Shown in pieces: positions 24,446-26,333 of a stretch of DNA of 64,000 nucleotides. Positions within the stretch are counted from its first letter, which is position 1; each line of letters starts with the position of its first letter. A program made the translations under genes and the position numbers. The stretch is from Phycisphaerae bacterium (GTDB lineage: Bacteria > Planctomycetota > Phycisphaerae > Phycisphaerales > Phycisphaeraceae), in the NCBI GenBank assembly GCA_030425705.1, contig JAUHZU010000002.1, positions 372,001-436,000 on the forward strand, written 5' to 3'. Below the pieces are notes generated by a model. It saw nothing but the letters and a program-made list of their open reading frames with translations, was not told the DNA's origin and ran no database searches.

Positions 24446-25306
24446 CTAAGCAATCGGGCGCATGGGTTGACTTGCGAATACATGGTCGACAACTTCACCA
24501 GGCAGGACTAGAAACAACTCGCTTGTGATGTTGTGCTGTTTCATGAGCGTAGAGACTGCGTTTTGGATTTCAAGGTTCGAGTAGCGGCTTGAAAAGTGAT
24601 AGAGCACTACGCGTTTGGGTTGGATTGCTGCAAGGGCCTCGATGACTTGTGGCAGTGAGGCGTGCCTGCCGCGAGCGGCACTTGATTCGAGGAATGTAGA
24701 TTCGTGGATGAGTGTCTCAATACCCTCCCAGCGTTCGGTTTGTAGCGATGTCGTGTCGCCCGAGTATCCAAGCAGGGGGCGTTCTTCGAGCACAGTCACC
24801 GCGTTTTCGCCTTGCGATTGTCGGAGGGCCGCGATCTCGTGACCCGCCATCCCACTAAGTTGAGGCCTCAGTTTCCTACGTTGCGCGATGAGCGTAAAGT
24901 CTAAACTCTTGATCTGGCCGGGTACGGCTTCGATGTGATCGTTGACACGTGCTTTTACTGTCAGTTCATTGCTGATCGGGACGTCATCCCCATCGGAGAG
25001 CCCGACCCACTGCGCGGGTCTGACATGAGGATCGAAGCGAGCACAGAACGACTGGAGCGCAGGAAATGAGCCGCAATCGCGCGGGTAGTAGATGGTCAGT
25101 CCGTTCGGTTTTTCGGTGAACTCGTTTAGACGGATCAGCCCGGAGACATGGTCGCGATCGGCATGTGTTACGAAGACATGGCGGATTTTCCCGGCCTTAT
25201 TGCCAAGCGCTGCGCACACTCCGTCGCCCGCGTCGAACAGGAGGCCGTATTCTTCCAGCATCATCCAGGTGGAGACACGGGCGGTCGAGAAAGCAGTGAG
25301 CTTCAT
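24446..25306 (-). CDS. MBL-fold hydrolase, RNase Z-like, HxDRDH variant
   Basis: 286 aa. Metallo-beta-lactamase fold: THADRDHVSG at 47-56, GYSGDTTSL, HESTFLE, and C-terminal LYHFSSRY, arranged as in RNase Z-like enzymes. The usual HxHxDH reads HADRDH, so Asp replaces the second His, which I believe recurs in a subset of the family. The substrate is unknown; a tRNA 3'-processing role is not assured. The ATG overlaps the stop of the SelW-like gene (ATGA), so both are on one transcript. A TATCAT also ends 6 nt upstream, inside that gene. Base composition is less GC-rich than neighbours. Confidence 0.83.
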   Translation of the reverse strand: MKLTAFSTARVSTWMMLEEYGLLFDAGDGVCAALGNKAGKIRHVFVTHADRDHVSGLIRLNEFTEKPNGLTIYYPRDCGSFPALQSFCARFDPHVRPAQWVGLSDGDDVPISNELTVKARVNDHIEAVPGQIKSLDFTLIAQRRKLRPQLSGMAGHEIAALRQSQGENAVTVLEERPLLGYSGDTTSLQTERWEGIETLIHESTFLESSAARGRHASLPQVIEALAAIQPKRVVLYHFSSRYSNLEIQNAVSTLMKQHNITSELFLVLPGEVVDHVFASQPMRPIA

Positions 25307-25521
25307 CCTCGAATGATACCCGGCACCTCGCCCGGCTTGGGGAAGCGCCCGGTCTGCCGTTTCGAGTAGACGACCGCGCCATCGACCGCGACGTCGAAGA
25401 TGCCCCCGCTGCTGCGGATCAGCTCCGCCTCGAGGCCGAGGGCCTGCTTCAGCTCAGCCGCCAACCTGACGGCATCGGGCTTGTAGTTTCACATCCCGCA
25501 GTAGGTGATCGTGACGTGCAT
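25303..25521 (-). CDS. SelW-type (Rdx family) predicted selenoprotein with in-frame UGA
   Basis: 72 aa if UGA at 25489-25491 is read as selenocysteine (U11). The N-terminus MHVTITYCGM-U-NYKPDAV matches the CxxU/CxxC redox site of the SelT/SelW/SelH family, with U at the second Cys position. After UGA the frame stays open and family-like: GGIFDVAVDGAVVYS, then RQTGRFPKPGEVPG, the C-terminal signature of these thioredoxin-like proteins. A SECIS-like hairpin follows the UGA (25457-25473). The start is 11 nt after the upstream stop, and the end overlaps the MBL gene start. Ordinary gene callers would see a 10-residue peptide. Alternative: a recently inactivated gene. The stop position and intact remainder make that less likely. 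Confidence 0.85.
25457..25473 (-). promoter_or_regulatory. Bacterial SECIS-like hairpin
   Basis: In RNA sense GCCGUC (25473-25468), loop AGGUU, GGCGGC (25462-25457): a 6-bp stem with one U-G pair. The GG of the loop lies 22 nt after the UGA, in the range of bacterial SECIS elements. The AGGU loop resembles that of E. coli fdhF. A short AGC/GCU helix can extend the base. Confidence 0.75.
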
Positions 25522-25532
25522 GGTTGGTCCCG

Positions 25533-26333
25533 TCAGTCCGTGCCGGGGCTGGCCGGCGTCTCGGGGGCGTCGGCCGGAGGCGCGTCGCTTTCTCCGGCCG
25601 ATGTGCCGGGGTCGTTGTCGTCGTCGGGCGGTGCGCCCTGCGCTTCGAGCTCCCGGGCCGCTTGCTCCGCGCGTTCGCGTTCTTCGCGCCAGCGCTCGGC
25701 GCGTTCGACGAGGCGCGGGTCGCGCTGCGGGCGGCGCAGCTCGGCGTGGATCGCGGCGATGTCGAGGATGTCCGCCTGCGTGTGCGCGGTGATCTGCGTG
25801 TCCAGCCGGCCCCCCGCGGTGCCGCCGACCGGTGTCGCGTGGACCTGTCGGCCCAGGTCGTTGGCGGCGTCGGCCCGTGCCTCGGCGGCGCGCTGCTGCT
25901 GGTCGAGCAGCTCCGGCGAGAGCACGTACACCATGTCGGACGTGACGATCGGGATCGCCCGCCCGTTGCCGCCGTTGGTCCCGTTGATGCCGACCACGCC
26001 CATGCCGTCCTGTGTCAGGTAGGACGACTGGTTGTAGAGCGCGGTGATGCCCGGGGCCCGGTAGAGGTAGCGTCGGCCGACCGCCTGCTGCCCGGCGTAG
26101 AAGTCCGCGGCCAGCGAGGCCGGCTGCGAGACGTACCGGTCGACCAGCGCGGCCTCGGGGCTGAACTGGCCGATGCCCGGCTCGACGACGCGCTGGCTCG
26201 CGCTGTTCGGCCCCAGGTCGCCGGTCCCGCGGTCCACGGGCTGGCCCTGCGCCGCCGCGACCCCCGCCGCCAGCACCGCGGGGAGCAGCGCCGCCGCCGA
26301 TCGCCCGGCCCGGTTGGTGCGGAAACTTCGCAT
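25533..26333 (-). CDS. Secreted protein, unknown function
   Basis: 266 aa. Signal peptide SAAALLPAVLAAGVAAAQGQ. The central part (about 40-165) has a YxxPxSLAADFYAGQQAVG-type segment and GVVGINGTNGGNGRAIPIVT. The C-terminal 100 residues are Arg/Glu-rich coiled coil (LVERAERWREERERAEQAAR) and then acidic/Pro. A TACACT ends 7 nt before the ATG at 26333, so it is likely leaderless. First gene of a three-gene run with the SelW-like and MBL genes. No family recognised. Confidence 0.72.
   Translation of the reverse strand: MRSFRTNRAGRSAAALLPAVLAAGVAAAQGQPVDRGTGDLGPNSASQRVVEPGIGQFSPEAALVDRYVSQPASLAADFYAGQQAVGRRYLYRAPGITALYNQSSYLTQDGMGVVGINGTNGGNGRAIPIVTSDMVYVLSPELLDQQQRAAEARADAANDLGRQVHATPVGGTAGGRLDTQITAHTQADILDIAAIHAELRRPQRDPRLVERAERWREERERAEQAARELEAQGAPPDDDNDPGTSAGESDAPPADAPETPASPGTD

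Follow-up and report, generated by a model that had tools for sequence, protein, structure and literature searches.

The minus-strand frame at 25303-25521 appears to be a bacterial selenoprotein gene that is functional, belongs to the SelW-like (Rdx/SelTWH) family and encodes selenocysteine (Sec) at residue 11, a reading to which a probability of about 0.96 is given on the basis of sequence comparison. All positions refer to the window, which is the whole 64,000-nucleotide stretch of Phycisphaerae bacterium DNA that was analysed. The frame runs from MHVTITYCGM through an in-frame UGA to NYKPDAV and continues by way of GGIFDVAVDG and SKRQTGRFPKPGE to a final RG and the stop codon. The UGA of codon 11 is followed by 61 stop-free codons before a second UGA closes the frame. 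This reading, including a family-like C-terminus, had been proposed in the preliminary description together with a tight packing between two genes, and both are present in the window: 11 nt separate the end of the upstream ORF (25533-26333) from the ATG, and an ATGA is shared with the downstream ORF (24446-25306). The coordinates are collected in Table 1.

Table 1. Features in and around the proposed selenoprotein gene (window positions).
Feature	Position	Strand	Remarks
SelW-like gene, proposed selenoprotein	25303..25521	-	72 residues + UGA stop; ATG at 25519-25521
In-frame UGA, codon 11, probably read as selenocysteine	25489..25491	-	second position of CxxU site (C8-G-M-U11)
Codon 8, Cys	25498..25500	-	Cys in 118/121 sequences, UGA in 3
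Putative bSECIS hairpin GCCGUC-AGGUU-GGCGGC	25457..25473	-	6-7 bp; loop AGGUU or GGU
ATGA overlap, selenoprotein stop / downstream gene start	25303..25306	-	seen in the sequence
Metallo-beta-lactamase-fold hydrolase	24446..25306	-	Pfam Lactamase_B_2 50.3 bits, cut-off 27; linked to the selenoprotein by position only
Upstream protein	25533..26333	-	no family above cut-off (Pfam, NCBIfam); adjoins the SelW-like gene in G001 too

The gene is patchy in its distribution. Among 101 close genomes, the window's own counted among them, the protein was matched in 10, and the 11 full-length matches obtained there display one UGA each, aligned with U11 in 11 of 11 rows (window included); two further matches are weak, partial and stop-free and appear unrelated. 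When named bacterial genomes were scanned, at least 521 relatives were returned, and the best 80 of these, which were kept, originate from Planctomycetota, Acidobacteriota, Gammaproteobacteria, Desulfobulbaceae, Verrucomicrobiales, Chloroflexi and others. A sample of the phylum provided matches in 143 of 392 genomes. Codons were then read by tblastn for the window and 120 loci (L021-L030, L033-L112 and L113-L142, the latter being the best 30 of the phylum-sample list), and UGA is found at position 11 in 121 of 121 sequences. Codon 8 specifies Cys in 118 of them and is UGA in the other three. Stops elsewhere in the frames of relatives had been named beforehand as the mark of a decayed gene; apart from the second active-site UGA in these three sequences, none occurs in any aligned stretch. 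The set is partly redundant (L117 is the window itself, L025 recurs as L113 and L095, and L024 recurs as L114), which leaves 113 distinct downstream stretches and, as it consists of the nearest relatives, Cys forms further out are under-sampled. More distant homologs carry Cys at the Sec position (G421 CGGC, G103 CTQC, G390 CVQC). A stop-free SelW-like paralog with the motif CVPG, hence Gly at the Sec/Cys position, was also observed at L145 (G367:C62) in a genome that has a UGA copy as well, and three other genomes of the same genus likewise display one UGA and one stop-free match each.

The hairpin located behind the UGA behaves, in these sequence comparisons, as a bacterial SECIS (bSECIS) under RNA-level selection. 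It had been described earlier as a SECIS-like 6-bp hairpin with an AGGUU loop, 22 nt past the UGA. The structure and the likeness hold, as the stem covaries and published bSECIS constraints are respected, but the distance fits the start of the loop (position 22 or 23 past the UGA) and not that of the hairpin, which begins at 16 nt. With an additional A-U pair the loop may also shrink to GGU, making 7 bp. The legend of Fig. 2A in PMC13188914 gives the constraints as a loop of 3-9 nt, a stem of 4-16 bp, a G within the first two loop positions, a distance of 16-37 nt from the UGA and a minimum free energy of -7.5 or lower, with the addition that the loop G often precedes G or U. With a loop of 3 or 5 nt, 6-7 bp, 21-22 nt from the UGA and -9.3 kcal/mol, the window hairpin lies within these limits. 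Geometry alone is, however, satisfied by 106 of 113 real sites and by 110 of 113 control stretches taken 63 nt downstream, and the stability of the window hairpin is not unusual (equalled or surpassed by 56 of 200 shuffled sequences, z -0.38). Single-sequence stability and geometry alone were therefore rejected as evidence, since the controls do equally well. What decides against a chance occurrence is comparison: the Rdx family match, the UGA shared at the aligned codon, the covariation of the stem and the suppression of synonymous change. The combination of geometry with -7.5 kcal/mol or lower is found in 64/113 real sites versus 11/113 control stretches.

Covariation and codon counts were based on 97 distinct sequences, obtained from the 103 of 121 loci that match the motif after setting aside the 18 that fail it. 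Standard pairing occurs in 91% of cells over the stem pairs 16-32, 17-31, 18-30, 19-29, 20-28 and 21-27; the same stem slid by 1-3 nt is standard in 22-60%, and 1000 shuffles gave a mean of 79% with none reaching 91% (kinship ignored). Pair 18-30, in which both nucleotides occupy third-codon positions, is standard in 95 of the 97 sequences (CG 62, GC 12, GU 10, UA 8, AU 2, UG 1) and its two-sided covariation of 0.478 is the highest within 48 nt, the next value being 0.191. Pairs 16-32 and 19-29 are unpaired in 24/97 and 26/97 sequences, respectively, and the minimum-energy fold keeps 21-27 in 82/97. Loop nucleotide 23 is G in 99% and nucleotide 24 is U in 93% of the 97 sequences, the window displaying the minority form with G at nucleotide 24. 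An Rfam scan of 25200-25650 produced no match up to E 1, and Rfam may hold no model for such elements.

The genome harboring the window (4.1 Mb, 21 contigs, 98.7% complete) encodes the complete Sec machinery. A selB gene is located at C14:662826-664715 (309.5 bits, or 345.2 when its second part is included, cut-off 242.25), immediately followed by selA (520 bits, cut-off 267.9) and then by tRNA-Sec (64.9 bits, cut-off 47; reported by ARAGORN as tRNA-SeC, anticodon tca), while selD lies at a short distance on this contig (362 bits, cut-off 125). The absence of selB, selC and selD, which the preliminary description had considered fatal to its proposal, is thus not observed: selA, selB, selC (tRNA-Sec) and selD are all in the same genome. 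The selD gene (C14:658047-658976; L018:1501-2430) itself displays one in-frame UGA, situated by reading in an N-terminal Cys/Gly-rich site, and SelD is for this reason probably a selenoprotein too. Formate dehydrogenase was considered as a further selenoprotein and discarded, its three weak matches in the genome being below cut-off and free of internal stops. With this further family searched, an in-frame UGA was seen in two genes of the genome, those of SelD and the SelW-like protein. In a relative that carries the UGA gene, selA is present in two adjoining pieces (G066:C1:952736-954114), possibly as a result of a frameshift or an assembly error.

The gene also accompanies selA across genomes. 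In the close-relative sample, selA is above cut-off in 14 of 101 genomes, distributed as 10/10 gene-bearing versus 4/91 other genomes (Fisher p 5e-11, kinship ignored). In the phylum sample, selA was scored as present at E 1e-70 or better, which holds for 241 genomes (238 above cut-off), and was found in 125 of the 137 genomes that carry the UGA gene versus 116 of the 255 that do not (p 1e-20, kinship ignored); G421 and G103, with stop-free matches, and G152, G264, G306 and G377, whose match type is unlisted, were counted among the latter. The 12 of 137 gene-bearing genomes devoid of a strong selA match are all in at least 140 contigs, and 8 of these 12 are less than 90% complete.

These observations bear on the possibility that the UGA is read as a residue other than Sec, or passed by near-cognate read-through or codon reassignment. 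Any UGA suppressor could in principle decode codon 11, but the codon corresponds to the redox Cys in aligned homologs, the SelB-type hairpin behind it is conserved and covarying, tRNA-Sec is present and the gene accompanies selA. UGA moreover serves as a terminator in this very region, closing both the SelW-like gene and the upstream gene. A decoding other than Sec is consequently held to be very improbable.

Even less probable is a decayed pseudogene, in which a Cys codon would have mutated to a stop and the frame would remain untranslated. The UGA does occur just 11 codons into a gene known here from its sequence alone. It is, however, shared at this codon by the window and 120 of 120 loci from several phyla, the window frame contains no other internal stop, and the Sec machinery of the genome is complete. 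The substitution pattern is also contrary to decay. The homolog in G001, a genome of the same genus, is 69% identical, and the comparison behind the UGA gives a dN of 0.21, well below the dS of 0.79. Over some 12 synonymous sites, codons 1-10 and 12-21 show no synonymous difference, and their two nonsynonymous differences fall at codons 3 and 19; codons 23-72, in contrast, have 21.7 synonymous differences in 38.8 sites. The Ser at codon 19, in the hairpin loop, is encoded by AGT in 58 of 58 sequences though six codons are possible. Taken together, the suppressed synonymous change, the dN below dS and the AGT usage suggest that both the protein frame and the RNA structure are selected, the frame spanning the UGA.

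The assignment of the product to the SelW-like family was obtained by profile searches with the UGA read as Cys. Pfam Rdx (PF10262) is matched with 65.8 bits (cut-off 22.6, E 4.2e-18), NCBIfam CXXU_selWTH (TIGR02174) with 55.9 bits (cut-off 34.2) and NCBIfam SelTWH_Campy (NF041051) with 88.2 bits, barely above its cut-off of 88, covering positions 1-69 of the 70 in the profile. The protein query employed for the family, relative and structure-alignment searches has one extra C-terminal residue (its stop codon taken as U and then entered as C), the matched stretches ending at residue 72 or before. The predicted fold is thioredoxin-like and of the SelW type: the AlphaFold2 model, computed from an 11-sequence alignment with Cys replacing Sec, has a pLDDT of 96.6 and a pTM of 0.85, and the top Foldseek ranks are solved SelW-related proteins, the best being 2fa8 (TM 0.92), with mouse SelW 2npb at E 6.3e-4. 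U11 aligns with Cys in all four printed alignments to solved relatives, the bacterial ones displaying CTQC. The placement of the UGA at the second Cys of a CxxC/CxxU site of the SelT/SelW/SelH type, as originally suggested, is borne out by the Rdx match and by the aligned Cys of relatives. The alignment with SelW-like proteins proposed at the same time gives Cys opposite U11 in solved structures and distant homologs, and UGA in close relatives. There is scarcely any chance that the TTG-start frame at 25464 (53 residues), which is open under table 11, forms a gene of its own with MHVTITYCGM as an unrelated leader. Such a product would lose the active site along with the first strand, sequence alignment and AlphaFold2 model alike extend from the first residues, and the comparison of codons 1-10 with G001 shows a single nonsynonymous difference and no synonymous one.

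The functioning of the proposed selenoprotein can be outlined as follows. SelB carrying Sec-tRNA(Sec) would bind the hairpin just behind the UGA and insert selenocysteine at residue 11, a step in line with the comparisons above. The product would be a small thioredoxin-like protein with the Cys8-x-x-Sec11 motif at the end of the first strand, before the first helix. Cys8 is the likely redox partner of Sec11, and judging from the family the pair would most likely cycle between the reduced thiol/selenol and the selenenylsulfide, perhaps reducing peroxides or protein disulfides in the cytosol with glutathione-like thiols. Translation should be expected to halt at codon 11 when selenium is low.

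The surroundings of the gene were compared with those in G001. The upstream protein is 55% identical to its G001 counterpart over 192 residues, and a convergent TetR-type regulator on the far side is conserved as well (82% over 211). Between these neighbors, no counterpart of the hydrolase 24446-25306 is found in G001, whose only match to it lies elsewhere in the genome and is 30% identical. Some match to the hydrolase exists in 52 of 61 genomes, but beyond the window's genome a close homolog was found only in G027 (50%). The remaining matches, of which the window's own genome has one as a second match, are 24-35% identical and are taken for RNase Z; RNase Z models match the hydrolase itself far below their cut-offs. 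The GC content of the hydrolase gene is 0.556, compared to 0.687 for the window. Its absence from G001, the rarity of close homologs and the low GC indicate that the hydrolase gene was probably inserted immediately behind that of the selenoprotein, in which case the ATGA overlap is a lineage-specific junction. Whether this stop-start overlap would make the downstream metallo-hydrolase selenium-gated, by a recent gain of control through insertion, is a speculative suggestion drawn from gene arrangement and considered rather unlikely. If true, Sec-inserting ribosomes would re-initiate at the ATGA and neither protein would be made when selenium is short.

The three sequences with a second UGA at codon 8 (UxxU) are L052 and L094, from Verrucomicrobiales, and L075, from a Chloroflexi MAG, and selA is above cut-off in all three genomes. 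Among genomes near the Verrucomicrobiales MAG of L052, 26 of 95 matched the SelW-like protein. Out of 20 loci read there, 11 display UGA at both positions (L161, L163-L170, L172 and L173, with L161 and L168 belonging to the L052 and L094 genomes) and 9 are Cys-UGA. In UxxU genes, one hairpin would need to serve two UGAs 9 nt apart. A UxxU SELENOW has been published for amphioxus and Ostreococcus lucimarinus (PMC7539508). CxxU alone is listed for the bacterial SelW-like family in the available parts of the prokaryotic reviews PMC13188914 and PMC9312934, and no case of a bacterial UxxU SelW was found in the portions of the literature searched.

SelW-like CxxU proteins are long-known and abundant bacterial selenoproteins (PMC1088965, PMC2398784, PMC1794560), and the window gene is an added member of this family. 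They led the GOS set with 427 sequences of motif CxxU and rank among the commonest marine selenoproteins (PMC2398784), and in PMC1794560 very few or no Cys homologs of the family are reported for Sec-using organisms. The function of the bacterial proteins was called unclear in PMC1088965, where CxxU is seen as a hint of a redox role and an interaction with glutathione is mentioned as an earlier finding. Annotation of epsilonproteobacteria missed some genes completely, SelW genes particularly (PMC4607533), which is what the preliminary description expected of standard annotation for the window gene. Planctomycetes with full Sec machinery and selenoproteins have been published (PMC4807772); a search for SelW in Planctomycetes, covering part of the literature and excluding supplements, found no report, PMC1794560 being its sole match. 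One well-supported SelW-like gene is added for Phycisphaerales, in which the Sec trait is patchy. It is a clear-cut example of how a selenoprotein gene could be read from raw sequence and then confirmed by comparison, and the covarying third-codon pair in conjunction with suppressed synonymous change provides a simple quantitative signature of a SECIS within a coding frame.

The closest known system is that of the bacterial SelW-like (SELENOW-like) selenoproteins of PF10262, with which the window gene shares the family, a CxxU site with one Sec, a bSECIS behind the UGA and the Sec machinery of the genome. Nothing essential differs: the window loop has GG at nucleotides 23-24 where relatives commonly have GU, and the stop of the window gene overlaps the next gene (ATGA). 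The NF041051 model is named for Campylobacter, whereas the window gene is from a planctomycete. The solved proteins 2fa8 (Agrobacterium Atu0228) and 3dex (SAV_2001) have the same fold, with a TM of about 0.9 and the active site at an equal place, but their CTQC contains Cys instead of Sec, in contrast to the CGMU of the window protein. Mouse SelW (2npb) has family and fold in common (profile E 2.2e-6, in addition to the Foldseek match above) and is nevertheless distant; the eukaryotic SECIS sits in the 3' UTR (PMC1088965), whereas the window hairpin lies inside the frame.
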